Of a DNA stretch of 36,517 nt, positions 3,360-36,167 are shown in pieces. The notes under the pieces were generated by a model. The model did not search any database and had not been told where the DNA came from. It saw nothing but the letters and a program-made list of their open reading frames with translations. This DNA is from Terriglobales bacterium (GTDB lineage Bacteria > Acidobacteriota > Terriglobia > Terriglobales > Acidobacteriaceae). Each line of letters starts with the position of its first letter. Position 1 is the first letter of the stretch. A program made the translations under genes and the position numbers. The stretch lies in NCBI GenBank assembly GCA_025927695.1, contig JAICLA010000003.1, forward strand, positions 1 to 36,517, written 5' to 3'.

Positions 3360-3541
3360 ATGAGTCCTTGGGTATTAAGGTTCGATTGAGTGCGAGTTGG
3401 GAATCATCGCATATTGCTTATATAACGCGCTAAACTTTTATGCTAGACTCACGCCTCTTCACCCTGATTTTTGCGGGCCTGTTTGATGGCCGCGGGAGTG
3501 TTGCTTTTTTTGCGTTCGATCGACTTGGGGATGGCCCAAAT

Positions 3542-11479: not shown

Positions 11480-11481
11480 GG

Positions 11482-12939: not shown

Positions 12940-14399
12940 TAGTCGGCTCCGTGGATTTCAGAAGTAGCATTCGGCCCACCGACGCTAGGGTGCCCCGGCG
13001 AATAAGTCTCGCGGCAACTGCGAGTGGTGGGAAAAAGTTTTTGCGGATTGAGAGTGCCCGCCGGATTGAAGACGTTGCGCAGACGCGTCATCACGTCAAT
13101 GTCGTCTTCCGAGAACATCACGGGCATGGCGGCCATCTTTTCCATGCCGACGCCGTGCTCACCGGTGATGGAGCCGCCGACGCTGACACAGTATTCGAGA
13201 ATCTCTTGTCCGGCGGCGAGGGTGCGTTTTGTCTGCTCGCGATCGCGGGTGTCGAAGAGGATGAGGGGATGCAGATTTCCGTCACCGGCGTGGAAGATGT
13301 TGCCGATCTGCAGGTCATATTTCCTGCCGATCTCACCTATCTTACGCAGCGTCTGCGGAATCTTGGTGCGCGGGATGACGCCGTCTTGCACATAATATGA
13401 TGGCGAGATGCGGCCAACCGCGCCGAAGGCATTCTTGCGGCCTGACCACAAGAGCTGCCTTTCTTTTTCATCCGCTGCGCGGCGGACTCCGCGAGCGCCG
13501 ACACGAAGACATATCTCGCGCACGGCGTCAGCGTTTTCGTCTACAGCTTCGCGGAGTCCTTCAAGTTCGATGAGCAGCACTGCGCCGGAGTCGAGCGGAT
13601 ACCCTGCGTGAGTGGCGGCCTCGACCGCACGGAGTGTCCAACCGTCCAACATTTCTAAAGCGGCGGGCGTGATGGACGCGGCGGTGATGGCTACGACGCT
13701 ATTGGCGGCATCGTCCACGGTATTAAAGACTGCGAGCAGAGTCGCAACGGCCTCCGGAAGTTTTGTGAGGCGTACCGTGATTTTCGTGGCAATGCCGAGC
13801 GTGCCTTCCGAGCCAACAAAGAAACCGGTCATGTCATATCCGCAGCTCTCGGCCGCTTTGCCGCCGAATTCGACAATGCGTCCTCCTGGCAGAACGACTT
13901 CGAGTCCGGTCACGTGATTCACAGTCACGCCATTGGCGAGCGTGTGGGGTCCGCCGGAATTTTCTGCTACGTTGCCGCCGATGGTACATGCCTTCTGACT
14001 GCTGGGGTCGGGAGCGAAGTAGTATCCGCGCGATTCGACGGCATGCGTGAGGTCAAGATTCACCACTCCCGGCTGAACCACCGCGCGCTGGCTGGGGATA
14101 TCGATCTCAAGGATCTTGTTCATGCGCGAGAAACCGATGACGATGCCGCCTTGTCTCGCGATGGCCCCACCACTCAAGCCGGTGCCTGCTCCGCGGGGCA
14201 CTATGGGAACATTTTCTTTCGTGGCGAGACGCGCGATCTGTGAAACCTGTTCGGTGGTCTGGGGGAAACACACCGCTTGCGGAGTACCGCGGTCTACGCC
14301 GCCGTCATATTCGTAAAGCATCAGGTCTTCAGGATGGTCGAGTACACCATCTTTCCCGACGATCTTCTTCAATTGCTTTACGAGCCTGTGAAACTGCAT
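12939..14399 (-). CDS. glcD: Glycolate oxidase subunit GlcD (FAD-linked oxidase)
   Basis: VPRGAGTGLSGGAIA, IGGNVAENSGGPHTLANGVT, C-terminal HAGDGNLHPLILFD and GEHGVGMEK. Start set to the internal ATG at 14399 because the longer ORF start (14447) crosses a hairpin. Confidence 0.92.
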   Translation of the reverse strand: MQFHRLVKQLKKIVGKDGVLDHPEDLMLYEYDGGVDRGTPQAVCFPQTTEQVSQIARLATKENVPIVPRGAGTGLSGGAIARQGGIVIGFSRMNKILEIDIPSQRAVVQPGVVNLDLTHAVESRGYYFAPDPSSQKACTIGGNVAENSGGPHTLANGVTVNHVTGLEVVLPGGRIVEFGGKAAESCGYDMTGFFVGSEGTLGIATKITVRLTKLPEAVATLLAVFNTVDDAANSVVAITAASITPAALEMLDGWTLRAVEAATHAGYPLDSGAVLLIELEGLREAVDENADAVREICLRVGARGVRRAADEKERQLLWSGRKNAFGAVGRISPSYYVQDGVIPRTKIPQTLRKIGEIGRKYDLQIGNIFHAGDGNLHPLILFDTRDREQTKRTLAAGQEILEYCVSVGGSITGEHGVGMEKMAAMPVMFSEDDIDVMTRLRNVFNPAGTLNPQKLFPTTRSCRETYSPGHPSVGGPNATSEIHGAD

Positions 14400-14421
14400 G
14401 GGGATGCGCAGATTGTAGCAA

Positions 14422-14441
14422 AGGCCGCTCGAAAGCGGCCT
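14422..14441 (-). terminator. Terminator-like hairpin between the Asn-rich protein gene and glcD
   Basis: Perfect 8-bp stem AGGCCGCT/AGCGGCCT with a 4-nt loop (TTCG on the minus strand); short T-run after it on the minus strand, so termination strength is uncertain. Confidence 0.45.
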
Positions 14442-14464
14442 CTGCATCGCGAAGGAATTTTCGC

Positions 14465-17775: not shown

Positions 17776-20616
17776 ATGATCACTCAACTGCAAGGTCGCA
17801 TGACGGCAATCCTGTTGGCTACTCTCACGCTGACAGTGATGGTTTTTGCGTGGCTGAACTTGCAACAAGAGCGCCGGGTCACGATCCCTACCGACGGCGT
17901 TTGGTGGGTTGAAACCGGCAAAACACTCGTCGCCGAGCGGGTTCGTGCGCAAGGCCCCGGCCAACTGGCTGGCATCAAAGTCGGCGACCACCTGCTGGAA
18001 GTGAACGACCAGACGATTGAGAACGCCGCGGATTTTGAACGCCAGATCTATAAAAAGGGCGTCTACACAGACGTCAAGTACGCACTGCAGCGCGGCGGCG
18101 TGCCGGTGGATGTGCAAGTCATCCTTGTTCCTGCTGACACGTCCCTGAATATTGGTTTAAGAACGATCGCGCTGATCTACCTCGGCATTGGATTGTTCGT
18201 ATTCATTCGCCGCTGGGGCGCACCCAAGTCAACGCACTTTTACCTTTTCTGCCTGGTCTCATTCGTCTTCTATGCGTTCAAGTACACGGGCAAATTCAAC
18301 GCGTTTGACTGGATTATTTATTGGTCAAACGTAGTCGCGTGGCTGTTGCAGCCAGCCTTGTTCCTGCATTTTGCGGTCACATTCCCGGATAGACGCTCTC
18401 TTCTCGAAAGACATAGGTGGACAGCAGCGCTGATCTACCTGCCCGGCGCGATCTTGCTGGCGCTGCATGTTACCGCGTTTGAAACACTTGCTCCAACGGA
18501 GTTACTGCGCTTCCGGCTCGACCAATTGCATTACAGCTACCTGACAATCTATTTCGTGCTGTCGGCTGCGATTTTGTGGGACAGCTATCGCCGTGCTGAT
18601 ACGCCGATCCTGCGTCAGCAGATGAAGTGGATCACTCGCGGAACGATCCTGGCTATTGCCCCCTTCACGCTTATCTATGTCATCCCGACGGTCTGGGGTG
18701 TTCTGCCGACGGCAGGCATGAAGATGTCAGTGCTGTCATTGATCTTCCTGCCGCTAACGTTCGGTTACGCCATCATCCGTTACCGCTTGATGGACGTGGA
18801 CATCATCTTCAAGCGCGGCGTGATCTATACGCTGGCCGCGGCGAGCATCGTTGGTTTGTATTTCGGCGTGGCCGCACTGTTCGCGCAGTTCGTACAGACG
18901 AAGTTCACGCTGGGTAATTGGGGATTGATCGTCGCCATTGTTGTGACGGCGCTCTTGTTCGATCCGTTAAAGCACGTGATCCAAGACCGGCTCGACAAGC
19001 TCTTCGATCGCAAGCGGTACGACTATCGCAGCACTCTCCTCGATTTTGGCCGCGACCTGAGTTCTGAAACGGATTTGAACAAGACGTTGAATGCCACGGT
19101 CGACCGGCTGTCGCGCACGCTGTTAGTAGACCGCGTCGCCATCTTCCTGGCCGACGACGAGCTCGAGGAAAAGTTCTTCATGGCGAAGGCTTTCAACATC
19201 GGCTACGAAGGGCCGATGGATTTAAGCTTCCTCCTGGTCTCGCGCCCTGAGGACGAATTGGGGCACTTATTCTTCGACAACACACGCCAGGCAGTACGCG
19301 AGACGCCGGCGGCGCAGGCGACCATCGCGGTGCTTGACCTCAACTACTACATTCCCTGCAAGGTGCAGAACAAAACAATTGCCGTGCTGGGATTAGGCAA
19401 GACTGTACACGGCGACTTCCTCTCTAGCGAAGACGTGGAACTTGTCGAGACTCTCGCAGGTTATCTCGGCATATCTATCCAGAACGCGCTGCTCTATGCG
19501 TCACTTGAACAGAAGGCCGCTGAGTACGAGCGATTGAAAGAGTTCAACGAGAACATCGTTGAATCCATCAGCGTTGGTGTCCTTGCGGTGGATCTTGAAG
19601 ATCGCGTGGAGTCTTGGAACTCGCAGATGGAAGTGATGTATGCCACGCCGCGTGCGCAAGCCAAAGGCAAGCTGCTGAGCGAGATATTCCCGCCGCACTT
19701 CATGGAAACATTCAACCGCGTGCGGCACAATCCAGGCATTCACAACCTTTATAAATTCCGTGTGAATACGCCCACCGGCGAATGGCGCACGGCAAATATC
19801 GCCATTGCACCGCTGGTTTCTCGTAACTTCCAGGTTGTGGGGCGACTCATTATTGTGGACGACATCACGGAGCGCATCGCGCTGGAATCGCAATTGTCAC
19901 AGGCAGAGAAGATGTCATCGATCGGCGTACTCGCTGCAGGTGTCGCGCACGAGGTGAACACTCCGCTGGCTGTGATCTCGTCTTACGCGCAACTGCTGAC
20001 CAAGCAGTTGCAAGGTGATGAAAAGCTTTCTGGCCTGTTGGACAAGATCACGCGGCAGAGCTTCCGCGCGTCTGAGATCGTGAACAACCTGCTGAATTTC
20101 TCGCGCACAGGCAGCAGCGAGTTCAGCGATGTTGACGTGAACAAAGTCATTACGGACACGCTGGCTTTGCTGGAACATCAGTTTAAGACCGCGCGTATCA
20201 AAGTGCAGGACGATCTTTATCACGGATTGCCTCATATCTATGGCAACAGCGGCAAACTGCAGCAGGTGTTTTTGAACCTGTTCCTGAACGCAAAAGACGC
20301 TATGCCGAACGGTGGCACGCTGATGGTGTCCACGAGCAACGGCAACGCGGTGAATGTTCGCGTTTCTGATACTGGCTCTGGCATCGCGCAGGAACACATT
20401 GCGCGCATCTACGATCCGTTCTTCACCACGAAGAATGCCGTGCGTGAGGGCCAGAAACGCGGAACGGGACTTGGGCTTTCAGTCACCTACGGCATCATCC
20501 AGGAGCACGCGGGCAAGATCAACGTTGAGAGTCAGCCGGGACAAGGGACCACGTTCCACTTGGAATTCCCCATGTCATTGGTGAAGGAACCGCAAAGTAA
20601 AGCGGTGCAGGTTTAA
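17776..20616 (+). CDS. Sensor histidine kinase: PDZ, multi-TM region, GAF, PAS, HisKA, HATPase_c
   Basis: PDZ-like GQLAGIKVGDHLLEVNDQTIENAADFE; about 7 TM helices; H-box AAGVAHEVNTPLAVISSYAQLL; N-box LNLFLNAKDAMPNGG; G-boxes VSDTGSGI and GTGLGLSVTYGII. Confidence 0.93.
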   Translation: MITQLQGRMTAILLATLTLTVMVFAWLNLQQERRVTIPTDGVWWVETGKTLVAERVRAQGPGQLAGIKVGDHLLEVNDQTIENAADFERQIYKKGVYTDVKYALQRGGVPVDVQVILVPADTSLNIGLRTIALIYLGIGLFVFIRRWGAPKSTHFYLFCLVSFVFYAFKYTGKFNAFDWIIYWSNVVAWLLQPALFLHFAVTFPDRRSLLERHRWTAALIYLPGAILLALHVTAFETLAPTELLRFRLDQLHYSYLTIYFVLSAAILWDSYRRADTPILRQQMKWITRGTILAIAPFTLIYVIPTVWGVLPTAGMKMSVLSLIFLPLTFGYAIIRYRLMDVDIIFKRGVIYTLAAASIVGLYFGVAALFAQFVQTKFTLGNWGLIVAIVVTALLFDPLKHVIQDRLDKLFDRKRYDYRSTLLDFGRDLSSETDLNKTLNATVDRLSRTLLVDRVAIFLADDELEEKFFMAKAFNIGYEGPMDLSFLLVSRPEDELGHLFFDNTRQAVRETPAAQATIAVLDLNYYIPCKVQNKTIAVLGLGKTVHGDFLSSEDVELVETLAGYLGISIQNALLYASLEQKAAEYERLKEFNENIVESISVGVLAVDLEDRVESWNSQMEVMYATPRAQAKGKLLSEIFPPHFMETFNRVRHNPGIHNLYKFRVNTPTGEWRTANIAIAPLVSRNFQVVGRLIIVDDITERIALESQLSQAEKMSSIGVLAAGVAHEVNTPLAVISSYAQLLTKQLQGDEKLSGLLDKITRQSFRASEIVNNLLNFSRTGSSEFSDVDVNKVITDTLALLEHQFKTARIKVQDDLYHGLPHIYGNSGKLQQVFLNLFLNAKDAMPNGGTLMVSTSNGNAVNVRVSDTGSGIAQEHIARIYDPFFTTKNAVREGQKRGTGLGLSVTYGIIQEHAGKINVESQPGQGTTFHLEFPMSLVKEPQSKAVQV

Positions 20617-20624
20617 GGAAGACA

Positions 20625-22061
20625 ATGGCTGAGACAGCAGTATTTCCGCATAGGATCAAGCGCGACGCTGAGAAGATGTCGCCGGCGCATGTGCTCATCA
20701 TTGACGATGAGATGGCGATCCGCGAATCGTTGCAGACGCTTCTCGAACTGGAAGACTACATTGTGACGCAGGCAGACACTGCGGAACAGGGATTGTCGCT
20801 CCTCGCAGCCAACACTTACGACCTGGTAATGCTGGATATTTCGCTGCCCGACCGCAACGGGCTGGACGTACTTGAAGAGATTCGCGAGCGCGACGCTTCT
20901 ACGCCCATCATCATGATCACGGCGCACGGCACCGTCGACAATGCGATCCGCGCCATGCAGAACGGCGCGTCGAACTTCATTGCCAAGCCGTGGGACAACG
21001 AAAAGCTTTTGGCGGACGTTTCCGCAGCGGTTGCACGCCGGCGCGTTGAAGAAGAGAACGAACAGCTCAAGCGCGCCCTCAAGCAGCGCTACAGTTTCTC
21101 CAACATTGTTGGCAAGAGCGACCGCATGCTCAAGGTTTTCGACCTTGTGGCGCAGGTCGCTCCGAGCCGCTCGACTATCTTGATCCAAGGCGAGAGCGGC
21201 ACCGGCAAAGAACTCATTGCGAAGGCTGTTCATGCGAATTCTCCGCGTAAAGACCGCCCCTTTGTTCCCGTGAACACGGGCTCGATGCCCGGCGACTTGT
21301 TGGAATCAACATTGTTCGGACACGTGAAAGGCGCGTTCACTTCTGCCATCGCATCGAAAAAAGGTCTGTTTGAAGTCGCCGACCGCGGCACGATCTTCTT
21401 GGACGAGATCGGCTCTATGGGTCTGGACACGCAAGCCAAGATCTTGCGTGTGCTGCAAGACCGCAAGTTCATGCACCTGGGCGGCGTCACTGAGATCCAG
21501 GCGGATGTGCGCATCATCGCCGCTACGAATGAAGATCTCAAACAGCTGGTAAAAGAAGGGCGCTTCCGCGAAGACCTTTTTTATCGCTTGAACGTCATCA
21601 CCATTGACCTGCCGGCGCTACGTGACCGCAAGGAAGACATTCCTCTTCTAGTCACACACTTCTTGCAAAGGTTTTGCAATGAGAACGGTAAGCCGAACCT
21701 CACGATGAATCCTGAGGCGCTGCGTCCGTTAATGGATTATGGCTGGCCGGGCAATGTGCGCGAACTGGAAAATGTTGTGGAGCGCGCGGTGGTTCTTTCC
21801 AGCGGGAATGCGATTAGCGTAGACCTCATTCCCGACCACATCGTGGGACGCGCTCCCATCACCAGCATCCTAGAAGGACGGGAAGACGCTTCCTTGTTTG
21901 ACATCATGGAAGAGTGCGAGCGCCGCATCATCGTGGACATGCTCGAGAAGTGCAATTGGAACCAGACCGATGCGGCCGAACGCTTTCGCGTGCCACTGTC
22001 CACGCTGAACCAGAAGATCAAGCGCTTGAACGTAGAAATCCGCAAAAAGAGCCGCGACTAG
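20625..22061 (+). CDS. Sigma-54-dependent response regulator (REC-AAA+-Fis HTH, NtrC family)
   Basis: REC ([26 protein letters not shown]), Walker [15 protein letters not shown] loop, FLDEIGSM, C-terminal HTH ([25 protein letters not shown]). Confidence 0.95.
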
Positions 22062-22616: not shown

Positions 22617-24737
22617 ATGCGGAAAGTGTCGAGTGCGCTGGCCTGCGTGCTTGCAGGGCTGGGGTGTCTCTCGGCGCAGCTTTGTGCTGCGCAGACGCCG
22701 CGCCGCATTCCGCGCCAAAATACCGGTCAACAAGCTGCCGTGGTTGGGCGAGTGATGCAGCAATCTTCCCTTGAAGCCGCAAACGCGCAACCAGTCAATG
22801 GGACTGAAGTCACGCTCCAGATCGGCAATCGCATCGTTTCCGCCGCAACCGATGCTGACGGCATTTTCCGTGTCGGCGGATTGCTGCCGGGAACTTATCT
22901 TCTCTCAGCCAAACATTCAGGATTCCAGCCCTTCATGAAGGCGAATGTGGAACTACATCAGGGCGAGATGTTGGTATTGGAGATTGGGCTTACACCTTCA
23001 GGAGCGGCTGCGCGGATTCCACCCGGGAGCACGAGGCAGATACCGGTAATGACTCCGGAAGGCAGCGGAGAGTCTCAACCTTCGTATCGCGAGATCAGTC
23101 GGAGGCCCACGACCGACTCTGAAGCAGTCTCATTTGCCGCGACGCCCACGCCTGATAAAAACTTCATCACCGAACGTGACCGCTGGGATTTGAGCATGCC
23201 TGATTGGGAGCGCTATGGCGATCGCGAGGGAGAATTCGGCTGGACTCGCGGTCGCTGGTTCGATCCGTTCAACCGCAATCGAATCAAGGGTGATAAACCG
23301 GTGATTGGCCAGAACATCTTTCTGAACTTCACTGGCACCAGCACCACCGCATTTGATGGTCGACGCTTGCCGGTGCCGAGTGGCGCGTCAGCGGCGAATC
23401 CCGGCAGTCAGGTGTTCTTTGGCAATGGCGGGCAGGCGTTCGTCGCGCAAACCTTCCGCCTGTCATTCGATCTGTTCCACGGCGACACCAGCTTCAAACC
23501 GGTAGATTGGCGCATCCGGGTCACACCCGCGTTCAACATGACGCAGCTTTGGGCACGCGAGCGCGGCGCGGTGAACATTGATGTCCGTGAAGGCACTCAG
23601 CGCTTTGACGAGCACTTCGGATTACAGGAAGCCTTCGGCGAGATAAAACTTCACGACCTAAGTCCAAACTATGACTTTGTTTCTCTTCGTGCCGGCATTC
23701 AGCAGTTCAGCAGCGACTTCCGCGGATTCATCTTCACTGATGAGCAGCCTGGCGTCCGGCTATTCGGCAACCTGCGCTCGAACCGCATCGAGTACAACGC
23801 CGCTTATTTCCAGATGATGGAAAAGGATACGAATAGCGGGCTGAACAAATTCCGACGGCGTCAGCAACAGGTGCTGATCGGCAATGTGTACATCCAGGAC
23901 TTTTTCTTTCATGGATATACGACGCAGTTCAGCTATCACTTCAACAAAGACGACGCTTCCCTGCACTACGACGAGAATGATTTCCTCACGCGCCCGGCGC
24001 CGATCGGAGCGGTCACGCCGCACAACATTCGTACCCACTACATCGGGTGGACGGGCAACGGGCACATCGGCAGGCTGAACATCAATCATGCCGCGTATCA
24101 GGTACTCGGGCACGACGACTTGAATCCGATCGCCGGACGCTATGTCGACATCAATGCACAGATGGCTGCGGTGGAACTCTCCCTTGACCACGATTGGCTG
24201 CGCTATCGCACGTCGGTGTTTTATGCGTCTGGCGACAAGAACGCGCGGGACAGCGTGGCGCGGGGATTTGATTCGATCGACGAAGCGCAGACATTCGCGG
24301 GCGGCGACTTCATGTTCTTCAACCGCGAGGGCATTCGCTTGACGGGAACAGGAGTCGCGCTTACGTCGCCGGACAGTTTCCTTCCGGACCTGCGGTCGAG
24401 CAAAGAAGAAGGACAGTCGAACTTCGTGAATCCCGGTATCTTCCTCGTAAATGCCGGCGTTGACGCGGACATCACGCCGAAGCTGCGGGCCGTCACCAAT
24501 GTGAATTACATGCGCTTTGTGCGCCCCAGCGTGCTGGACCAGTTGCTATTCCAGTCGAATATCGCGTCGAACATCGGAACGGATTACAGCGCCGGGTTGG
24601 TATACCGTCCGCCTCTCACAGACAATATGACGCTCACTGGCGGAGTGTCGGCACTTGCGCCCGGACTTGGCCTGCGACAGATATACACCAGCAAGACCCT
24701 GATCTCAGGTTTCATCATAGTGAGATTCCAGTTTTGA
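22617..24737 (+). CDS. Outer-membrane beta-barrel protein with N-terminal carboxypeptidase-regulatory-like domain
   Basis: Signal peptide; [45 protein letters not shown]; long amphipathic-strand region ending in FIIVRFQF (terminal aromatic OM signature). Confidence 0.8.
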
Positions 24738-24759: not shown

Positions 24760-24783
24760 CGGGCGACCTTGCCGATAGTTTTC

Positions 24784-27700
24784 ATGCGACTCTCGACCGC
24801 ACAAATCGGACGACTGATCATCGCGCTGGTGTTCGCCGGTGCGCTTGTGCTGTTGGTTGTGCGCGCGGGCGGTAAGGCGCAGGCGGCAGAGCCGCCGCCT
24901 CAGGATCAAGGTCTACTCGGCCAGACGCAGCAGGATGCCGACGCCAAGAGCGCCGGCTGCACCTCTTGCCACACCAAAACTGACAGCGCGACCATGCATC
25001 CCACGGGCACCGTGCGATTAGGTTGCACAGATTGCCATGGGGGAGATGCGGGCGTGAGCGTCGCTGCAGGCGTCGCCGCCGAATCGGCCGGATATCAGCA
25101 AGCGAAGAAGAAAGCCCATGTCCTCCCTCGCAATAAGGAAAATACATCCGGCGGCGCGAATCCTGTCCGCGCGTATGCCGATTGGATCAAAGAGAGCTAT
25201 GACTTCATCCGCTTTGTGAATCCCGGCGATCTGCGTGTGGCCGCGCAAAGCTGTGGGACCTCAGGCTGCCATACAGCTGAGGTGCAGAAGGTCCGAACCA
25301 GCATGATGACGCACGGCGCCATGCTGTGGGAGGCCGGCCTGTATAACAACGGCGCATTCCCGTATAAGAACGCACACTTTGGTGAAGCCTACGGAGAAGA
25401 TGGTTCGCCGCAGCGGCTGCAGACGTGGCCTCCGCCAACGGCAGAAGAAACAAAGACTAAAGGAGTGCTTCCCTTTCTTGATCCTCTACAGCGCTGGGAA
25501 GTCTCGATGCCCGGCAATGCACTGCGGGTGTTCGAACGCGGTGGCGGAAAGCGTGGTGAGACGGCCAATCCGAATCCTGAAGAAGACGCTGGGCGTCCGG
25601 ACGTAAAGTTAGGCGAGCGGGGGTTCGGTACCGAGCTTCGTACCGATCCTGTGTTCCTCGGCTTGCAGAAGACGCGATTGCTGGATCCTTTGCTCTCTTT
25701 CCCTGGCACCAATGACCAGCCCGGCGACTACCGCGGCAGCGGCTGCACCGGATGCCATGTGGTCTATGCCAACGACCGCAGCACATTCAATTCAGCGCAG
25801 TACGCGCAGTACGGAAATGAAGGCCACTCGATCACGGTTGATCCCACCATTCCGAAGAACCAATCCGGACATCCGCTGCAACACGTCTTCACGCGCACCA
25901 TTCCATCCAGTCAATGCATGAGTTGCCACGTTCATCCCGGCACGAACATGATGGCTACATACTTCGGCTACACCTTCTGGGACAACGAAGTGGACGACCA
26001 GAAGATGTATCCGAAGATTGAGCACGACCCGACCCAGGCTGAATTGCAGCGCGCGCATTTACGGAATCCCGAAGGTGCGACTGCGCGCGGGCTGTGGTCC
26101 GACGTGAAGTTCCTGGAAAAGACCGGCACGCCAGAGTTCAACAAAGACCTGCAGCATACCCAGTTCGCTGATTTCCATAGCCATGGCTGGATATTCCGCG
26201 CCGTGTACAAACACGATCGCAAAGGAAACTTGCTAGACGCCGACGGCAAGATCGTCTCCTTCACTGATCCAGACAAGTTCGCCAAGGCTGTGCACCTCAA
26301 AGATATCCACCTGGAAAAGGGTATGCAATGCGTCGATTGCCACTTCGAGCAAGACTCGCATGGCAATGGCAAACTTTATGGCGAGACTCGCAATGCCGTG
26401 GAGATCACTTGTATTGATTGCCATGGCACGATCAGTGCGTATGCGAATCTCACGACATCCGGCCCCGCCGCCCCAGTCGGGGGCACACGGCTTGATACCC
26501 TGCGCACGAGTTGGAGGCAGTCGCGCTTCTACTGGCGCGGCGAAAAACTCTTCCAGCGCTCCGTCATGGAACAAGGCAAAGAGTGGGAAGTGGTACAGGT
26601 GAAAGACACCATCACACCCGGCAACATTCATTACAACGAGAAATCGCGGCTGGCGAAGACCATCCAAAAGGACGGATTCATCTGGGGCAATTCGCGCGAT
26701 ATGGAAAAATTGGCGCATGGCGACTCGCGCATGACTTGCCAGAGCTGCCACACGTCGTGGGCGCCAAACTGCTTCGGCTGCCACCTGGAGATGACCGCCA
26801 ATCAGAAGATGCCCGCGCTGCACAACGAAGGCCAGATGTCGCGCAACTGGACCTCCTACAACTTCCAGGTGCTGCGCGACGATTCTTACATGCTCGGCAT
26901 TGACGGTACCGTGACCGGTAACAAGATATCGCCGGTGCGGTCCGCGTGCGCCATCATCGTGAGTTCGCAAAACGCGAACCGCGATTGGCTCTACTTCGGC
27001 CAGCAGACGGTCTCTGCAGAAGGCTTCAGTGGACAGTCGTTCAGTCCGTTCGTCCCCCATACGGTTCGCGCGAAAGAGACGAAGCAGTGCACGGATTGTC
27101 ATGTCTCCTCTGACAAAGACAATAACGCCTGGATGGCGCAGCTCATGTTGCAGGGCACGAACTTCCTCAACTACATGGGCCAATATATATATGTGGCGAA
27201 GGGCGACGAAGGGTTCGAGGCAGTTCCCTTCCAGGAAAAAGACGAGCCACAGACGGTTATCGGCAGTGATTTCCATCGTGTCGCATACCCGGAGCGATAC
27301 AAGAAATTCATCGCGCACAAGTCGCAGCTTAGGACCGGCTACGAGCATGCCGGAAAAGAAGTATTGGACCTGCAGATGCGCGGCGAGTACCTCTACGCCG
27401 CGATGGGCACCGGCGGGTTGCGCATCTTCGACATTGCCAACATCGACAATAAGGATTTTTCGGAGCGCATGACCACGGCGCCAGTCTCGCCGCTGGGGCA
27501 ACGTCTGTACGTGAAGACCAAATTCGCGGCAGACATCGCTAGCCCCACCACGCTGGCAGTCGATCCGACCCGCGAACGATTCCCTGAGAATGAGGAGCAG
27601 CCCATCCATCCTATCTACGCCTACCTGTATGTCGCGGATAAAAACGAGGGACTGGTTGTCATTGGCAACACAGGCAAAGCCAAAACGCCGGGAGTGGCAA

Positions 27701-28521
27701 CGCTGCTCGATGGCGAGCCGCGCAACAACTTCATAAGCCGCGCTTTGGCGTTCAATCCGCGCGGCGCGTTAAACGGCGCGCATCGCATCGTGATCGCCGG
27801 AACTTATGCCTACCTTCTCTGCGATGCCGGGCTTCAGGTGGTCAGCCTCGATGATCCCCTCCATCCGAAGATCACGGCGACGATTCCCGCCGCTTCCCTG
27901 CCGGATGCGCGAGGCTTATCAATCCAGTTCCGGTATGCATTTGTCGTGGATCGCGAGGGACTGAAGGTGCTCGACGCGACTGACCTAGCGCATCCGACGC
28001 TCGTGCAAGGCGCAACCGTTCCAGTCGAAGACGCTCGCAATATTTATGTTTCGCGCACGTACGCGTTCATCGCCGGCGGCAAGCAAGGTATCGTGATTGT
28101 GGATGTTGAGAAACCCGAGCATCCCAAGCTCGATCAGGTCTTCAACGCGAATGGCGCGTTGAACGACACGCGCGACATCAAGATCGGCATGGTAAGTGCC
28201 AGCCAGTTTGCATTCGTCGCGGACGGCAAGAACGGTATGCGCATCGTGCAGGTGTTCTCTCCGGGAGACAATCCCGAATTTTACGGATTCAGTCCGCGAC
28301 CGACTCCGAAGCTGATCGCGACTTATCGCGGCAAGGGCGAAGCCCTGGCCATCTCCAAAGGTATTGATCGCGACCGCGCAGTGGACGAGAGCGGCAACCA
28401 GCTCGCCGTCTTCGGACGCCGCGGCGCGCGGCCCTTCACGCTAAAAGAGATGCAGAAGATGTATCTCCGCGAAGGCAAACTCTTCACAGTCACAGACACG
28501 CCACCCGGCCCGCCGCAATAA
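24784..28521 (+). CDS. Exported deca-heme c-type cytochrome fused to C-terminal LVIVD repeats
   Basis: Nine CxxCH motifs plus one CX4CH (CGTSGCH); C-terminal half has repeats such as [63 protein letters not shown]; signal peptide ending AQA-AE. ATG at 24784 preferred over TTG at 24769. Confidence 0.9.
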
Positions 28522-28527
28522 ATCTCG

Positions 28528-29904
28528 CTAGTCAGCCTGCCCAGTGAGTTGAGGAATTGTGTACACGGGCTTGAACGGCTTACGCTGCTGCCAATCGTGA
28601 TATTGGTGGCAGAGAAAGCATCCGCTCTCTGCAGATGAATTGCTGGCCCCGCTATGGCAGCTGCGGCACGAATCAATTCCCGGTATCAGTACGTCTGAAG
28701 TCCGCGCGCTGGTCAGCGCGGCAGCGTGGCAGGAATCGCAACGGACAGCCGAGTGGGCGCTGTGATCGAAATACGAATGGCTGAACCAGCGTGTAGGCAT
28801 GGATGCAGGTTGTATCTTCGGCAAACCCAGTTGCGAGTCGTGCGCGTCCGGCGAGGTGGTTTCCGCATGGCATTGCTTACAAGTCTTGCCCCAGAGAAGG
28901 GTTTCATCCGAAGCGACTCTGTCCTTCAGCCAGTCATCAGGACTCTTCGCTTGCAGCGCTACTTGCTGCACGCCTGGAATGCGTCTGGTCGCGGCTTCGG
29001 TCTCGCGCCATGCCGCAGGATTCGTCTTCAAATATTGTGTGAGGGCCGTGCGCACGAACCCATCTACAACAGCCGGCGTCTCATGCGGCACCGAACCTGC
29101 AGCCTTTGTGTCAAAGGGCAACGAGTGGCATGCTATGCAATGCTTGTCATATGAGATTGGGCCCATGAGCGCCTCCCGAGAATCGCGCATGGGGCCTAGC
29201 GGAGCTTCGTTGGCAGACGCATGCTGCCATTGAGCTGAACCGAAGCGCCAGGGACCTTGCTGCTCACCCGAAGGACGATGACAATCCGAACATTCCAGGT
29301 CGACATTGCGAGTCTTTGAGCCCGGAGGCCCAAGCAAGCCAGATTTCATGTGCACCGAGTGGTTGAAAGCGATGGTCGTTAGATCAGGCTTCTTCAAGGC
29401 CGCAAATTCAGGGTGCTGCTTACCAAAACTAAGGATGGCGTTCACCATATGCGGCGAACCGTGCGTGGTCTTTAGATCAGAGTGGCACTGCGTGCAGTTC
29501 TGGTCAGCCGTGCGCGCGAGTTGCACTGAACCCACGTGCTCGGCATGACAGGAGCCGCACGTGGGAGTGAAAGTCACAAGGTCAGCGTGATGTGCGGGCG
29601 CCTGGTGGCAGGTTAAGCAAGCTTGATCCTGTGCATGCTTCCTGAAACCGCCAACGCGCAACGTGCCAACAAAGTTTGCGTGACAAGTGTCACATTGCTT
29701 GCCTAGGACCGCGTGCGCGCGAGACATCTTGCCACTACTGTAAGGAACGCTGTCACCGCGCAAACCCTGGACTCCCAGCCAAGCGAGAAACAATACGGGC
29801 ACGCATGCGGCTAGCAGCGCAAGCGCGAGCTTGCGTCGCGTCCAGGTCTTGAAGTAATTCAAGTCATGGCGCGTTCCGAGTTGTTTAGCCGTGCGTTTGC
29901 GCAT
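28528..29904 (-). CDS. Membrane-anchored deca-heme c-type cytochrome
   Basis: Ten CxxCH motifs (CDTCH, CLTCH, CGSCH, CTQCH, CSDCH, CIACH, CKQCH, CDSCH, CRSCH, CFLCH); N-terminal TM anchor KLALALLAACVPVLFLAWLGVQGL. Confidence 0.9.
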   Translation of the reverse strand: MRKRTAKQLGTRHDLNYFKTWTRRKLALALLAACVPVLFLAWLGVQGLRGDSVPYSSGKMSRAHAVLGKQCDTCHANFVGTLRVGGFRKHAQDQACLTCHQAPAHHADLVTFTPTCGSCHAEHVGSVQLARTADQNCTQCHSDLKTTHGSPHMVNAILSFGKQHPEFAALKKPDLTTIAFNHSVHMKSGLLGPPGSKTRNVDLECSDCHRPSGEQQGPWRFGSAQWQHASANEAPLGPMRDSREALMGPISYDKHCIACHSLPFDTKAAGSVPHETPAVVDGFVRTALTQYLKTNPAAWRETEAATRRIPGVQQVALQAKSPDDWLKDRVASDETLLWGKTCKQCHAETTSPDAHDSQLGLPKIQPASMPTRWFSHSYFDHSAHSAVRCDSCHAAALTSARTSDVLIPGIDSCRSCHSGASNSSAESGCFLCHQYHDWQQRKPFKPVYTIPQLTGQAD

Positions 29905-29911
29905 CGTCTCT

Positions 29912-30802
29912 CTAGTACCGCAAAGCGACCACCGCGTGGATCAGGCCCAAAACCATTACCGCTGCTGCCAACGGCACATGGCCCAACAGCCAGCTGTGCA
30001 GCCAGCGATGATATTTCGATTGCCGGTCGAGATCGCGTTTTTCCTGGCAAATGTTTTCCAGGTCATTGAATATCTCATGCAACATTTCCGGAGACACCGT
30101 GCGCATCTGCTCGAACAGGAGTTTCGATTCGCGTTCGCTGCGCAAGTTAGAACCGCGCGCACTGCGGGCGGAAAGATAGGGGCGGATCTGGTCAGAATAA
30201 ACTTCAGTCAAATGGCTGCGTGTTTGAGAATTCACTAACTTCAGTGTGAGCGCTGCTATTCGGCGCTCGTTGGACATAGCCGGCGCCAGCAGACCTTCCA
30301 GCGTAGGCGAGAATGCAAGGCGCAATCTATCTGCTTCTTCTACCAGTTGCGCACGCACACGATCGATCTGGTCATAGATGGTCTCCATGGCCACCCGTTC
30401 GGTGATCAGGTTCGGCAGGTAATGTTGCAGCACTGCGCCGAAAATGCCGCTGGCAATGACCAGCGATAGCAGGATCATGAGAATCGTTGTAAGTGAACCA
30501 CCGAGCGAAAATCCCGCATGGAAAAGAATGATGGGATATGAAAGCAGCCCGAGCCACAGATGGCCGCGCATCCACGTCTGCGCGCGCCCGATCCGCCAGG
30601 TGGTGAACCGCTTGCGCAGGCTGAGCAGCGTGGCGAAGATCATCAGTCCATAGCCAACGACTCCGAAAGCAATGCCGATCGCGCTACCGCCGCTCGGACC
30701 ATGCGCAGACTCCAGCGAATAAGGAACGTAGACGGCCAGCGACACGAGGAAGAGGATCGCGGTAACGATGGCCCATCGCTTGTGTGTATGGTCGATGCGC
30801 AA
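29912..30802 (-). CDS. Cytochrome b-like integral membrane protein
   Basis: About 5 hydrophobic helices with His in or near membrane (MRGHLWLGLLSYPIILFHAGFSLGG; WLHSWLLGHVPLAAAVMVLGLIHAVVALRY); TTG start directly after the upstream stop. Confidence 0.7.
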   Translation of the reverse strand: MRIDHTHKRWAIVTAILFLVSLAVYVPYSLESAHGPSGGSAIGIAFGVVGYGLMIFATLLSLRKRFTTWRIGRAQTWMRGHLWLGLLSYPIILFHAGFSLGGSLTTILMILLSLVIASGIFGAVLQHYLPNLITERVAMETIYDQIDRVRAQLVEEADRLRLAFSPTLEGLLAPAMSNERRIAALTLKLVNSQTRSHLTEVYSDQIRPYLSARSARGSNLRSERESKLLFEQMRTVSPEMLHEIFNDLENICQEKRDLDRQSKYHRWLHSWLLGHVPLAAAVMVLGLIHAVVALRY

Positions 30803-32989
30803 TCAGTCAATCGCCTTCAAATGTTTTTGGTCCACCATGTCAGCAAAGAAGTCGGTGGGCGTGACACGATGCGCGGCGTCATGCGGACATGAGTACACGC
30901 AGCTCGGTTCAGGGTGATCATGGCAAAGATTGCACGATGTGGCCTTACGGATGACTCGAGCTTTCTTCAAACGCGCCTGTGCATCGCCCGCTTGCGCAAA
31001 CACCTCGCCTGACTCTTTAACCGCGAACTCCTGCAGATTGATGTTTCCATACGGACAATTGTTCGCGCAGACACCACAGCCAATGCACCAATCTTCAATA
31101 ATGACTTCCAAAGAATTCTTTCTGCGGATGGCGCCCACCGGGCAGCCGACCATGCATAGCGGGTCGCGGCACTGCCGGCACGACGTGGCGACAAGGTAGT
31201 GATCGAATCGAAGGCCGTCGCGGATGAGGCGCGTGACACCATCATGCGAATCGGCGCAGCCTTTCACGCATTGGTCGCAGCGCGTGCACTTTTCCAGATC
31301 AAGCACGAGCAGGCTCTGCGCTTCCATCAAGCCTTGCTGCAGGAACTGATCGACAGGAACCGTGCTGACCTGTTTGAAACGGTTTTTGTTCTCTCTGATT
31401 CGGTCGTCTGACACGGCTTTGAGTCTGTCCGCGATGTCAGGGAACGTCGCCATCATCTCGTTGAAATCATGCGCGGAGATCTTCACGACTTCCGTGTGGT
31501 CTAGCGCGGAACAGGTCGCAGTACGAACGCCGCCGCCACCGAGCAGACCGATCTCGCCGAAGTAACTTCCCTTTGACAAATAGGCCAGAACCAATTCGCC
31601 GCCAGGATAATGCTCTGTGACTTTCACGAAACCGATGCGGACTAGATAGAAGGCGTCTGCCTTATCGCCTTGTTCAAAGATCACGTCTCCCGGCGCATAA
31701 CGAATGAGTTCAACTTCCTCACGCAAATGCTCGATGAAGTTTGACGTCAGCGTCGAGAAGATGGGCACGCTGCGCAGGTGCGTTTCCAGCGCACGCTGGC
31801 GATAGTTGAGTTCCAGTTGCGCGCGGAAGGTCTTGTTCTTCTGCATCACGTCAAGCACGTTGCGCAGCATCTCTAGCATCACGCAGTCGGTCTCAGCCCG
31901 CACCGTGGCAGAGCGTGGATAGAAACTCATGCAGGTCATCTCGCCGAAGAGTTCGCCGGGACCTAGCTTCGCGACCGGATTGTCATACTCAAGATCAATG
32001 TTGGCGTCGATGGAGATGAATTTCTTGATGAGATTTTCTTCTTCGCGTTGATGGTCCGCGCGGCCTTTAAGCTTGTTTCTCAGCTTGCTGAAAAAACCAT
32101 TGCCGGTGCCTTCCGTATCGACGTGCCCCTGTGGACTGGCCAGGTAGATGTCGACGGTGCCTTCGAGAATATAAAACGCCGTGGAACCGTAATCGCCTTC
32201 ACGGAAAATGATGTCGCCTTTCTTGTAATTGCGCTTCACGATGGCGCCGCGATTCAACTCAAGAAATGTTCCGGATACGCCTTTGAAGACCGGCAGCTGC
32301 AGCAGCTCTTTTACGTCGAGCGAGAGGCCTTCGTCTTCCTGTAAGTGCTGGCCCACTACCTTCTTGTTAGTCAGCGCGCCCGTGGGACAAGAGACCATAC
32401 ACTCACCGCATGAGACGCAGGACGAACTGCCCATGGGCGAATCCATATCAAATGAGATGGCCGCGGCGTAGCCTTTGCCTTGACGAGCAATGACATTGTT
32501 ATGCCGCACTTCGCCGCAAGCACGGATACAGCGGTCGCAGAGGATGCACGCAGAGTGGTCCACCAAAATGCTAAGGGAAGATTCGTCTTGGCCGCGCGGT
32601 GCGGCGCGTTTGGTGAAACGCGACTCGCTCACGCCATAAAGCTGCGCGAAGGTCTCGAGTTCGCAGTCGCCGGAATGTTGCTGGCGTACACAGGGGCTGG
32701 GGTGATCTGCGACCAGCAGTTCCACCAGGCTGCTGCGCGCTGCCTGAATCTCAGCAGTGTTGGTCTTCACCTGCATGTTCTGGTCGCATTGGCGGATGCA
32801 CGATGCCGCATAGACGCGTGCACCGACATCGACCACACATAAGCGGCAAACCGCCACGGGGCCCTCGTTCTGCTGATGGCAGAGCGTGGGGATGGGAATG
32901 TCATGCATTCGCGCGGCGTCAAAGATCGTGGTGCCGATAGGCACTTCGACCTTGCGGCCGTCAATAGTGAGATGGACCATATCGCTCAT
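30803..32989 (-). CDS. NuoG-like Fe-S protein with two internal cNMP-binding domains and a C-terminal DmsB/HybA-like 4Fe-4S domain
   Basis: N-terminal 2Fe-2S (LCHQQNEGPVAVCRLCVVDV), CILCDRCIRACGEV, CVSCGECMVSCPTGAL; cNMP cassettes FGEMTCMSFYPRSATV and FGEIGLLGGGGVRTATC; C-terminal CTRCDQCVKGC, CRQCRDPLCMVGCPVGA, CIGCGVCANNCPYG, CNLCHDHPEPSCVYSCPHDA. Confidence 0.9.
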   Translation of the reverse strand: MSDMVHLTIDGRKVEVPIGTTIFDAARMHDIPIPTLCHQQNEGPVAVCRLCVVDVGARVYAASCIRQCDQNMQVKTNTAEIQAARSSLVELLVADHPSPCVRQQHSGDCELETFAQLYGVSESRFTKRAAPRGQDESSLSILVDHSACILCDRCIRACGEVRHNNVIARQGKGYAAAISFDMDSPMGSSSCVSCGECMVSCPTGALTNKKVVGQHLQEDEGLSLDVKELLQLPVFKGVSGTFLELNRGAIVKRNYKKGDIIFREGDYGSTAFYILEGTVDIYLASPQGHVDTEGTGNGFFSKLRNKLKGRADHQREEENLIKKFISIDANIDLEYDNPVAKLGPGELFGEMTCMSFYPRSATVRAETDCVMLEMLRNVLDVMQKNKTFRAQLELNYRQRALETHLRSVPIFSTLTSNFIEHLREEVELIRYAPGDVIFEQGDKADAFYLVRIGFVKVTEHYPGGELVLAYLSKGSYFGEIGLLGGGGVRTATCSALDHTEVVKISAHDFNEMMATFPDIADRLKAVSDDRIRENKNRFKQVSTVPVDQFLQQGLMEAQSLLVLDLEKCTRCDQCVKGCADSHDGVTRLIRDGLRFDHYLVATSCRQCRDPLCMVGCPVGAIRRKNSLEVIIEDWCIGCGVCANNCPYGNINLQEFAVKESGEVFAQAGDAQARLKKARVIRKATSCNLCHDHPEPSCVYSCPHDAAHRVTPTDFFADMVDQKHLKAID

Positions 32990-34713
32990 GCGCGTTTCCC
33001 CTCAAAGCACACACCCGCAGGACACTGGCGATTCAATATGTGCGCGTCAATCTCTGGGCGGAAATGTTTGATGACCGACTGAATAGGAGCAGGCAATATC
33101 TGGCCTAATCCGCAAATGGATGTTTGCCGCAGCGTGTGAGACAGCTCGTCGAGCAGCGGCATGTCGCTGGCAGTGAAGCGGCCTTGCGTCCATCCGGTGA
33201 GCATGTCCACCATTTTTTGCGAACCTACGCGGCACGGCACGCACTTGCCGCAGGATTCATTCCGATAGAACTTCACCGCGTTCAGCGCCATGTCAAGCAT
33301 GCAGGTACCTTCGGCACAGACTACGATAGCGCCCGAGCCCACCATGGAGCCGGCCTTCGCCATCACGTTCCAATCGAGAGGAAGATCAAGCATCGAGGCG
33401 GGCAGATATCCTGACGAAGGGCCTGACGGCGCGTAGCCCACGATCTTCTTGCCCGCCGGCGGCCCGCCTGCGTAGTTGTTGATCAACTCGGTGTAAGTAG
33501 TCCCCATGGGCACCTCGAACACGCCGGGGTTCACCACATCGCCGCTCACGCCGACGAACTTCAGCCCGAATGCGCCATTCTTGCCGTGGGACTTATACCA
33601 GGCGGAGCCTTTTGCCAGGATTGCGGTCGCGAAGGCAAAAGTCTCTACGTTGTTGATCACGGTGGGCTTGTTCCATAGCCCATGCATAACAGGAAAGGGT
33701 GGCTTGTTGCGCGGCTCTGAGCGCTTGCCTTCGATCGCTTCGAGCAGCGCAGTCTCCTCCCCGCAGATGTATCCGCCTGGACTTACAAAGATGGAGAGAT
33801 CAAAGCCGAGTCCCGACACAAGGATATTCGGCCCTAGGATCTTCTTCTCATAGCAACGGTCGATCTCTTTTTGCAGGATGTGTTCCTGCTCTTCGTACTC
33901 ATGCCGGATGTAGAGAATGCCTTTTTTCGCGCCGGTGATCAGGCCTGCAATGATCATGCCCTCGATCACCAGATGCGGCAGATGCGTCATGATGAAGCGA
34001 TCTTTGATGGTGCCGGGTTCGCTTTCGTCCGCATTGCAGACGATGAATTTCTCGTCGCCCGCGGCGTCACGTACAGCTTCCCACTTCATGCCGGTAGGAA
34101 ATCCGGCGCCGCCCATGCCGCGTAGCGCGCTGTCACGCAACACCCCGATGGCTTCAGCCCATTTTGGCGCAGCAAGCAAATCCTGGAGAACTTTGTAAGG
34201 CCGCTGGCCTTCGTAAGGATCTGTGAGCAATGTGGGCGACGCGGCCCCGTTATGCGCCGCCTTCGTGGGGTGGCCTAGCAGCGCTTGATCAATCAGATCG
34301 CCGGCCGAGGAAACCGTCAGGTGGTCGTAATAATCATCGCCGATGCTCATGGCCGGAGCGTGATCGCATCGGCCAAGGCACGAGGCAGGACGCAAGGTGA
34401 AATCGACATCTGCAGTCGTGCGGAACCGGTCCTTGATGCCTGCAAACAGTTTGTCTGAGCCGCGGAGATGGCAGCTCATGTCCGTGCACACATTCACGTT
34501 CACCTTGGCGGGCTTCTGCAAATAAAAGTGCGGATAAAAACTGGCGACCGTATAAACGTTTTTTACGTCAATGCCGCGGCGCTCCGCCACCTGCTTCATC
34601 TGAGCCGCAGGCAGAAAGCCATACACTCGCTGGATATGCTTCAGTTCCGCGAATATGCCTTCGAGCTTGCGGTCGGCCACGGGGCCCCGCGCTGGTGACG
34701 TGCTGGTTGTCAA
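32986..34713 (-). CDS. NuoE-NuoF fusion (NADH:acceptor oxidoreductase diaphorase subunit, HoxEF/HndAC-like)
   Basis: NuoE 2Fe-2S motifs CTDMSC and CLGRC; NuoF MGGAGFPTGMKW, GGYICGEETALLEAIEG, SCGKCVPCRVG, SICGLGQ; ends CPAGVCFEGKRA. Start reassigned to TTG 34713 (GGAG ribosome site) from ORF track start 34761. Confidence 0.9.
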   Translation of the reverse strand: MTTSTSPARGPVADRKLEGIFAELKHIQRVYGFLPAAQMKQVAERRGIDVKNVYTVASFYPHFYLQKPAKVNVNVCTDMSCHLRGSDKLFAGIKDRFRTTADVDFTLRPASCLGRCDHAPAMSIGDDYYDHLTVSSAGDLIDQALLGHPTKAAHNGAASPTLLTDPYEGQRPYKVLQDLLAAPKWAEAIGVLRDSALRGMGGAGFPTGMKWEAVRDAAGDEKFIVCNADESEPGTIKDRFIMTHLPHLVIEGMIIAGLITGAKKGILYIRHEYEEQEHILQKEIDRCYEKKILGPNILVSGLGFDLSIFVSPGGYICGEETALLEAIEGKRSEPRNKPPFPVMHGLWNKPTVINNVETFAFATAILAKGSAWYKSHGKNGAFGLKFVGVSGDVVNPGVFEVPMGTTYTELINNYAGGPPAGKKIVGYAPSGPSSGYLPASMLDLPLDWNVMAKAGSMVGSGAIVVCAEGTCMLDMALNAVKFYRNESCGKCVPCRVGSQKMVDMLTGWTQGRFTASDMPLLDELSHTLRQTSICGLGQILPAPIQSVIKHFRPEIDAHILNRQCPAGVCFEGKRA

Positions 34714-34732
34714 AGATTGTCTCCGGTGGGGG

Positions 34733-34761
34733 ATTATAATCTGCCCCGCGGGACCTACCAA
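34733..34761 (-). promoter_or_regulatory. Sigma-70-type promoter for the NuoEF/Fe-S/cytochrome b/deca-heme operon
   Basis: Minus strand TTGGTA-N17-TATAAT (34761-34756/34738-34733), about 20 nt upstream of proposed start 34713. Confidence 0.6.
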
Positions 34762-34832: not shown

Positions 34833-36167
34833 ATGGCTTCTATGACGACCCTCGCCAGAAAGACGCGATCGGCAGTTGCGCAGACTCTATTTGTGGCGAC
34901 CTTTGCCCTTGCCGGCGCGCTTTGCGCGGCCGCTCAGCAATCTGTAGCCCATGAAGCGAAATACCTAGGACCCGGCTCCTGCAGCGCTGTGGCCTGCCAC
35001 GGCGGCCTGGCTCCTATGAACGTGACGCCTATCCTGCAGAACGAATACAGCATCTGGGTGGTCAAAGATAAGCACGCCAAAGCCTGGTCTGTACTGCAAA
35101 ACCCCGTTTCCCAACGGATGGCCAACATCCTTGGCATCGGCAAAGCGCAGGCCGCGCCAAAATGCCTCGCCTGCCACGCGCTGGCTATCACACCCGCGCA
35201 AAAGGGCCGCGACTTCGACAATACTGACGGCGTGAGCTGTGAGAGCTGCCACGGCCCGTCGTCCAACTGGCTGGGACCACATACCCTCAAAGGCGCGACC
35301 ACGGTGCAAAACATCGCGCTGGGCATGTTTGATACCAAAGACGTGATCAAGCGCGCTGAAGGCTGCATGACTTGCCACATAGGCACGGCAGACAAGTTTG
35401 TTGACCACGAAATGATCGCCGCCGGACATCCTGACCTGGTCTTCGAACTTGACGCTTATCTCGCCGTTGAGCCGCCGCATTGGAAAGCCAATCCGGATCC
35501 ATTCAATGGCGTGCGCGTCTGGAGCGTAGGTCAAGCCGTTCAGCTTTCGGAGAGCCTAAAGCGGCTCTCGCGACGCGCGAATGGTCCGATTTGGCCGGAA
35601 TATGCTGAGCTTGATTGCATGAGTTGCCATCACAGCTTGACCAAACCGGAAGATAGCTGGCGGCAGAATCTTGGTTATCACGATCGGCGGCCGGGAAATC
35701 CGGCTTACAACGATGCGCACTATGTTGTATTCCGCGCGCTGCTGAAAGATTGGGACGCCGGCGCGAGTAGCGACCTTGAGAAACAGCTTGATGTCGTCTA
35801 TCGCGAGACCACCAAACTCAACGGCGACCGCAAGGCAATCGCCTCCGCGGCTGATTCCGCTGCTGCCATCTCCGGTTCCCTGGCGCAGCGGCTGAACAAG
35901 ATGGAATTCAATCGCGAGTCCACCGCGCGGCTGATCCGCGCGATCTGCGCTGATGCTGACCACATATCAGCTGGTGGTGTGCGTTCAGCCGAGCAAGCGA
36001 CTATGGCTCTCGATTCCGCCCTGATCGCCTATTCCAAGTCTGCGGGTAACCAGCCGGAGACGCGTAACGCGGTTAATGCTCTGTTCTCGCAGCTGGACAA
36101 TCCCTCTGCGTACAACGCTCCCAAGTTTGCGGCGGCGATGAAGCACGTTAGCGCTTCCCTGCGCTAA
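34833..36167 (+). CDS. Exported multiheme c-type cytochrome (cytochrome c554-like), 5 heme motifs
   Basis: Signal peptide; CSAVACH (CX4CH), CLACH, CESCH, CMTCH, CMSCH. Confidence 0.87.
   Translation: MASMTTLARKTRSAVAQTLFVATFALAGALCAAAQQSVAHEAKYLGPGSCSAVACHGGLAPMNVTPILQNEYSIWVVKDKHAKAWSVLQNPVSQRMANILGIGKAQAAPKCLACHALAITPAQKGRDFDNTDGVSCESCHGPSSNWLGPHTLKGATTVQNIALGMFDTKDVIKRAEGCMTCHIGTADKFVDHEMIAAGHPDLVFELDAYLAVEPPHWKANPDPFNGVRVWSVGQAVQLSESLKRLSRRANGPIWPEYAELDCMSCHHSLTKPEDSWRQNLGYHDRRPGNPAYNDAHYVVFRALLKDWDAGASSDLEKQLDVVYRETTKLNGDRKAIASAADSAAAISGSLAQRLNKMEFNRESTARLIRAICADADHISAGGVRSAEQATMALDSALIAYSKSAGNQPETRNAVNALFSQLDNPSAYNAPKFAAAMKHVSASLR

Follow-up and report, generated by a model that had tools for sequence, protein, structure and literature searches.

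A bacterial iron-sulfur protein with tandem cyclic-nucleotide-binding domains in a predicted NADH-to-periplasm electron conduit

The CNB-FeS gene and its operon

The window (the whole stretch of 36,517 nucleotides of Terriglobales DNA analysed here) carries a minus-strand operon whose core gene encodes a protein that combines iron-sulfur modules with two cyclic-nucleotide-binding (CNB) domains. This CNB-FeS protein, its parts and its neighbours are listed below, with the basis of each assignment in parentheses.

30803..32989, minus strand: CNB-FeS protein P0001, 728 aa, with NuoG/HydA-like N-terminus, CNB-A, CNB-B and four-cluster ferredoxin (Pfam, PDB match, dN/dS)
32354..32989, minus strand: NuoG/HydA-like N-terminal module, residues 1-212 (Pfam; PDB match to HydA1, E 2e-40; Cys conservation)
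31835..32293, minus strand: CNB-A, spanning about residues 233-385 and interrupted by an insert at about 288-338 (PF00027 half-matches; PKA/PKG tandem fold match)
31904..31948, minus strand: CNB-A phosphate-binding cassette FGEMTCMSFYPRSAT, residues 348-362 (homologue conservation)
31430..31768, minus strand: CNB-B, about residues 408-520 (one clean PF00027 match at 429-515; PKA/PKG fold match)
31517..31561, minus strand: CNB-B phosphate-binding cassette FGEIGLLGGGGVRTA, residues 477-491 (homologue conservation)
30866..31312, minus strand: DmsB-like four-[4Fe-4S] ferredoxin domain, residues 560-708, with 16 ligand Cys (Pfam, Cys alignment)
32986..34761, minus strand: NuoE-NuoF fusion P0002, 591 aa, with TTG as the called start (NADH/FMN, [2Fe-2S] and [4Fe-4S] input)
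29912..30802, minus strand: integral membrane protein P0003, predicted diheme cytochrome b (His pattern, gene order)
28528..29904, minus strand: N-terminally anchored decaheme cytochrome c P0004, 10 CXXCH
24769..28521, plus strand: P0006, a multiheme cytochrome with LVIVD repeats, 9 CXXCH and a signal-like N-terminus (convergent to the operon; syntenic in many loci)
22617..24737, plus strand: predicted outer-membrane beta-barrel (signal-like N-terminus, CarboxypepD_reg, C-terminal Phe; syntenic)
34833..36167, plus strand: c554-family cytochrome P0005, 4 CXXCH (divergent from the operon; syntenic)

The CNB-FeS gene runs from an ATG at 32989 to a TGA finishing at 30803 as one open reading frame, and the coordinates and single 728-aa product given in a preliminary description of this DNA are therefore correct. 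A Pfam search recovers Fer2_4 at residues 3-78 (E 2e-15), two 4Fe-4S pairs at about residues 143-206 and 600-705, and cNMP_binding, with E 1.4e-40 over the whole protein. Comparison with a 97%-identical relative (L009) gives dN 0.022 and dS 1.40, a dN/dS of about 0.016. These values, together with homologues in three phyla, place the architecture far beyond chance. Confidence in the AlphaFold model is low outside the CNB domains: the mean pLDDT is 60, and the Fe-S parts fall below 50. A role as a transcription factor is ruled out by the domain content, since the Pfam matches of the protein include no HTH family and nothing corresponding to the C-terminal DNA-binding domain of CRP/FNR regulators.

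The N-terminal module carries ligands for a [2Fe-2S] cluster (C37/C48/C51/C64) and for two [4Fe-4S] clusters (C148-C158 and C191-C201). The NuoG/HydA-type His-Cys3 site lacks one ligand: H96, C100 and C109 are conserved, the middle Cys is replaced by Gln (HydA HNRECTTCIRSENC versus HPSPCVRQQHSGDC in the window), and PF10588 falls under its Pfam cut-off. The proposal of a NuoG/HydA-type N-terminus with 2Fe-2S and 4Fe-4S motifs thus stands apart from this missing Cys; the His-Cys3 [4Fe-4S] cluster that it implied may be absent or differently bound. The label 'NuoG-like' also needs some adjustment. The module is of the HydA/NuoG kind, but its nearest PDB relatives are the NADH-dependent [FeFe] hydrogenase HydA1 (E 2e-40) and formate dehydrogenase alpha rather than NuoG, and a score of 110 bits against the NuoG equivalog TIGR01973 (cut-off 470) does not qualify the protein as NuoG. 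The HydA, FdhA and NuoG modules of hydrogenases, formate dehydrogenases and complex I are served by the same NuoEF-to-cluster-chain input. Unlike these enzymes, the window protein lacks the middle Cys, has no H-cluster, molybdopterin or complex I domain, and carries CNB domains instead.

At the other end of the protein, all 16 ligand Cys of a DmsB-type ferredoxin are present in four complete quartets (568/571/574/578, 604/607/612/616, 635/638/641/645 and 686/689/697/701), as the preliminary description had claimed for a DmsB/HybA-like domain. C689 is Ser in 3 of 25 relatives. DmsB/HydN-type subunits share the sixteen Cys and four motifs. In contrast to them, the ferredoxin here is fused behind CNB domains, and the adjoining membrane gene resembles a cytochrome b rather than a molybdoenzyme or an NrfD/DmsC protein.

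The NuoEF fusion lies directly upstream of the CNB-FeS gene, with an ATGA overlap, and matches PF01257 (2Fe-2S thioredoxin-like), PF01512 (FMN-binding) and PF10589 (4Fe-4S), all above cut-off. On the other side, P0003 starts one base past the CNB-FeS stop codon (zero gap). Its homologues have invariant H81/H95 and H275/H289, two HX13H pairs on separate segments whose spacing suits two b hemes, as well as H265. P0003 matches no Pfam family and has no significant PDB fold match, so it is assigned as a cytochrome b from the His pattern and its place in the gene order. The gene order of the window is conserved at many Acidobacteriota loci, and from this order the operon reads as a path from NADH through an Fe-S chain and membrane heme b to periplasmic heme c. 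An input module of complex I is ruled out, because complete relatives have a second, separate NuoF and the operon leads to cytochromes.

Hmc/Tmc-type complexes have a similar layout of cytoplasmic Fe-S protein, membrane cytochrome b and periplasmic multiheme cytochrome c, and a gene for a predicted outer-membrane barrel lies near the window operon, a point of similarity to porin-cytochrome conduits. The window operon differs from both in its dedicated NADH input, its CNB domains and a predicted cytochrome b for which no cytochrome b family was detected among Pfam matches or PDB folds.

Several other gene sets lie in the window. Near the barrel gene, a histidine kinase (PDZ, GAF, PAS) is followed by an NtrC-type response regulator (17776-22061, plus strand), and transcriptional control of the cytochrome set by this pair is possible. 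A hydantoinase-like amidohydrolase and a dihydropyrimidine-dehydrogenase-like pair (1965-6236) form a pyrimidine-degradation set. The genes for two FAD-linked oxidases and for an Fe-S protein with a CCG domain (10121-14447, minus strand) resemble the glycolate oxidase GlcDEF operon.

Tandem CNB domains and their pockets

Foldseek searches with the AlphaFold model rank tandem-CNB proteins first (PKG I-beta with cGMP, PKA R and Bcy1), and PKA/PKG relatives are also recovered by sequence. The CNB-A/CNB-B order, the cassette and its spacing are those of PKA/PKG regulatory tandems. The window protein differs in being bacterial, in having an insert of roughly 50 residues in CNB-A, and in that an electron carrier, rather than a kinase, would be controlled. 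This insert, at about residues 288-338, splits CNB-A and causes it to appear as two PF00027 half-matches.

Both phosphate-binding cassettes keep FGE and Arg (F348-G-E350...R359 in CNB-A and F477-G-E479...R489 in CNB-B), which bears out the earlier description of two CAP_ED-type domains with these residues; the fold is that of PF00027/CAP_ED. The spacing from Glu to Arg and the motif fit PKA/PKG cassettes. CNB-A keeps the canonical cassette Arg together with the Ala-Thr that comes after it, and Thr352, not Glu, occupies the position of PKA Ala202. Among all 15-mers of the protein, the cassette at residues 348-362 is the most conserved, with a mean identity of 0.992 over 25 homologues that exceeds that of every Fe-S motif. 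E350 and R359 are present in 64/64 relatives of groups a and b, which are defined below. In CNB-B, E479 and R489 each occur in 62/64, and four relatives have lost one or the other. The CNB-B cassette loop of the window (31517-31561) has one extra Gly (GGGG) relative to L009 and nearly all others.

Kannan et al. 2007 (PMC2246266) reported co-evolution between the cassette Arg and a beta2-beta3 loop Gly. The residue equivalent to this Gly (PKA Gly169) is G268 in CNB-A and is found in 63/64 members of groups a and b. At the same position CNB-B has A444, and Ala is also the most common residue there across groups a-d.

CNB-B also matches the CNB domains of Pycsar effectors (PycTIR, E 3.5e-23; PADLOC). 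Pycsar is a system that uses cyclic pyrimidines. A Pycsar defence effector is ruled out, as the PADLOC match covers CNB-B alone and a TIR or other effector domain is absent.

Relatives, clades and linked cyclases

A genome scan yields 32 loci, whose hosts belong to Acidobacteriota, Rokubacteria/Methylomirabilota and Planctomycetota; one of them, Granulicella aggregans, is a named isolate. Wider searches find matches in 30/396 Acidobacteriota, 68/392 Planctomycetota and 15/95 Rokubacteria-group genomes, where many of the Planctomycetota and Rokubacteria-group matches are to the NuoG-N part alone in other enzymes. A non-redundant set of 89 core sequences was divided into five groups. NuoG-type proteins (group a, n=45) carry the fused NuoG-N module, short-type proteins (b, n=19) have no input domain, and flavin-type proteins (c, n=5) begin with a flavin/pyridine-nucleotide oxidoreductase domain, as judged from Pfam analysis of one member. 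Group d holds 13 divergent short forms and group o the 7 others.

The NADH module follows this division closely. NuoEF lies just upstream in 42/45 NuoG-type loci versus 0/44 of the others (0/19 in group b). The membrane and periplasmic partners are shared more widely: the cytochrome b gene adjoins the core gene at 33/45, 16/19, 5/5 and 12/13 loci of groups a, b, c and d, and the decaheme gene at 34/45, 15/19, 4/5 and 10/13. From these counts, the constant unit is the tandem CNB, four-cluster ferredoxin, cytochrome b and decaheme; the NAD(P)H input is exchanged in some groups and missing in others. At some Planctomycetota NuoG-type loci (L028, L038, L100, L107, L109-L111, L116 and L119) the cytochrome b and decaheme neighbours were not detected, and the electron partner of these proteins may differ.

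Clade d (L054-L066) keeps the fold, the cassette Glu and the operon partners. The Arg is found in 0/13 members in CNB-A and 0/13 in CNB-B, and the coupled Gly (position of G268) in 1/13. Group c keeps the Arg yet has Thr at the coupled-Gly position of CNB-A, so the coupling is not universal. The preliminary description had named degenerate or blocked pockets as evidence that would count against nucleotide control. At the level of sequence, the pockets are intact in the protein's own clade (a and b) and degenerate in sister clade d. The pattern is the one expected if groups a and b use CNB-A to bind a cyclic nucleotide and group d has abandoned this. The clade d downstream genes tested encode FHA proteins and FHA proteins with a pyridine-nucleotide oxidoreductase (L082:1-2292 and L082:2289-3398), as if phospho-signalling or another ligand had replaced the cyclic nucleotide. 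DUF4388-FHA genes are also found just upstream of clade c CNB-FeS genes (L086:8637-9551 and L089:4312-5385).

Nucleotide cyclases of class III, called by a cyclase-domain profile and confirmed by Pfam for representatives, are encoded 1 bp to 5.8 kb from the core gene at 11/35 NuoG-type loci versus 0/32 others. The Fisher p of 3e-4 for this linkage is uncorrected for relatedness, and the 11 cases represent about five independent arrangements, as judged from the differing architectures (CHASE2-, GAF-, FHA-, TPR- and AAA/TPR-cyclase). For example, a Planctomycetota FHA-cyclase gene (L038:6813-7730), in which the first metal Asp is Glu, is directly upstream of a NuoG-CNB-FeS gene. The cultured species G. 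aggregans (L027) has both the NuoEF-to-decaheme operon and a linked cyclase. Counts of cyclases per whole genome are 1 in L017, 2 in three others, and 15 and 21 in two more; in the 3.3 Mb L017 genome, the sole detected cyclase is the neighbour of the core gene. No linked cyclase was found at short-type loci, though these keep the Arg. None is encoded within the 36.5 kb window either, and the genome from which the window derives has three cyclase domains elsewhere.

The tandem CNB has a known precedent in a redox setting. Bact_Pyrredox, listed as family 13 by Kannan et al. 2007 (PMC2246266), has a pyridine nucleotide-disulphide oxidoreductase domain followed by tandem CNB domains and thus shares with the window protein the joining of a tandem CNB to a redox module. 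Its cassette GEMGLISGRRRGATVRA matches that of clade c (FGEMSLISGRRRNATARA in L069), which has the same cytochrome b and decaheme partners, and in cassette and architecture the family corresponds to group c. The oxidoreductase domain that defines it is found in clade c only. The window protein has a HydA/NuoG-N module (Fer2_4) and a separate NuoEF in place of the flavin domain. Neither the C-terminal four-cluster ferredoxin nor a membrane conduit is mentioned in the main text of PMC2246266, in which the word 'ferredoxin' does not occur. Family 2B encapsulins carry a CNB domain (PMC8049743) and, like other non-transcriptional bacterial CNB proteins and the protein studied here, no DNA-binding domain, but their partner domains and role are unrelated. 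The tandem-CNB/pyridine-nucleotide oxidoreductase family has therefore been known since 2007. The NuoG-CNB-CNB-FeS protein, the shared cytochrome b/decaheme conduit and the cyclase linkage are apparently new, in that no description of them was found in the open-licence full-text literature. The Acidobacteria and Verrucomicrobia conduit papers searched do not mention a dedicated NADH input or CNB domains.

A candidate gated electron conduit

A mechanism can be proposed in which the NuoEF fusion would oxidise NADH and pass electrons along the HydA/NuoG-like cluster chain to the DmsB-like ferredoxin domain, both within the CNB-FeS protein. From there, electrons would cross the inner membrane through the diheme cytochrome b and reach the anchored decaheme cytochrome in the periplasm; the LVIVD multiheme cytochrome and the outer-membrane barrel are probable further steps. 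The tandem CNB, similar to that of PKA regulatory subunits, sits between the NADH-side and membrane-side clusters of one polypeptide. A cyclic nucleotide would occupy CNB-A, with weaker binding or a tuning role at CNB-B, and the ligand would alter how the cluster modules are arranged or how they dock to the membrane subunit, such that the conduit opens or closes. Binding, the identity of the ligand (cAMP or cGMP most likely), the direction of flow and gating are the steps that we infer.

Taken as a whole chain of claims, the assignment of this operon as a NADH-to-periplasm electron conduit gated by cyclic nucleotide on CNB-A is somewhat favoured. Direct control of this kind, rather than control of transcription, was the central proposal of the preliminary description. 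It is the best-supported reading, although binding and an effect on electron flow are still predictions. Direct action is favoured by the missing DNA-binding domain, the conservation of the CNB-A cassette, the joint retention or loss of Gly and Arg, and the cyclases near related loci.

The other readings considered here concern electron direction or quinone exchange, a structural role for the CNB domains, and a different ligand. They overlap one another. In the first, which is unlikely but deserves the most weight, electrons flow in reverse or exchange with quinone at the cytochrome b, such that the operon encodes an uptake system or a quinone-linked complex (Hmc/Tmc-like) and not a NADH outlet. 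Diheme cytochromes b commonly carry quinone sites, which would alter the circuit. Sets of multiheme and outer-membrane proteins serve electron uptake as well as discharge, and the short-type loci contain no NADH module. However, the core gene and its NuoEF/NuoG-N input are closely linked (42/45 versus 0/44), and transfer from NADH to c-type heme is downhill, whereas electrons moving inward to NAD+ would have to climb in energy and work against the membrane potential.

A purely structural role for the CNB domains, as spacers or dimerisation modules that descend from a regulatory ancestor, keep both cluster modules in place and have ceased to bind any ligand that matters, is rather improbable. 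CNB folds that bind no ligand do exist elsewhere. In addition, clade d maintains the same operon with both Arg lost, so a conduit can work without a canonical pocket, and the window itself contains no cyclase. Yet a spacer would be expected to drift, as clade d did. In CNB-A the Glu and Arg that contact the ligand in PKA are instead present in 64/64 relatives, the cassette is conserved beyond the Fe-S motifs, and cyclases are linked to the core gene in relatives.

The same low probability attaches to a conduit that is gated by some other small ligand, such as cCMP/cUMP, a nucleoside or another nucleotide, rather than by cAMP or cGMP. The similarity of CNB-B to the CNB domain of PycTIR would fit this alternative. 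Against it, class III cyclases are mostly purine cyclases, and those linked to the core genes belong to this class; CNB-A also retains the Arg and Ala-Thr, with Thr352 rather than Glu at the Ala202 position. For clade d, a possible model is provided by trypanosome PKA, where loss of the Arg accompanies nucleoside binding (PMC10959531).

There is almost no chance that the fusion is an artefact of assembly, binning or a frameshift, as might be suspected from a source assembly that is 72% complete in 318 contigs, and this explanation is rejected because the architecture recurs in many independent genomes of three phyla, one isolate among them, as a single open frame with the low dN/dS given above.

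Beyond the window, the gated-conduit interpretation might be extended to the whole family, and the case for doing so is close to balanced. NuoG-, flavin- and short-type proteins would then belong to widespread transmembrane conduits with a PKA-like, tandem-CNB cyclic-nucleotide switch, some with a linked cyclase, and clade d would have been re-tuned to another ligand or signal. The natural variants, with and without the phosphate-binding Arg and with and without the NADH module, offer material for comparison.

A path from NADH to the periplasm would bypass proton-pumping complex I and could run down the membrane potential. For this reason, a fast allosteric valve would be useful to the cell. 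Cyclic nucleotides in bacteria are known mainly as transcription signals. If the proposed mechanism is correct, these proteins would represent post-translational control by a second messenger over the destination of respiratory electrons, in which a respiratory path is opened or closed within seconds in abundant, poorly understood soil phyla.
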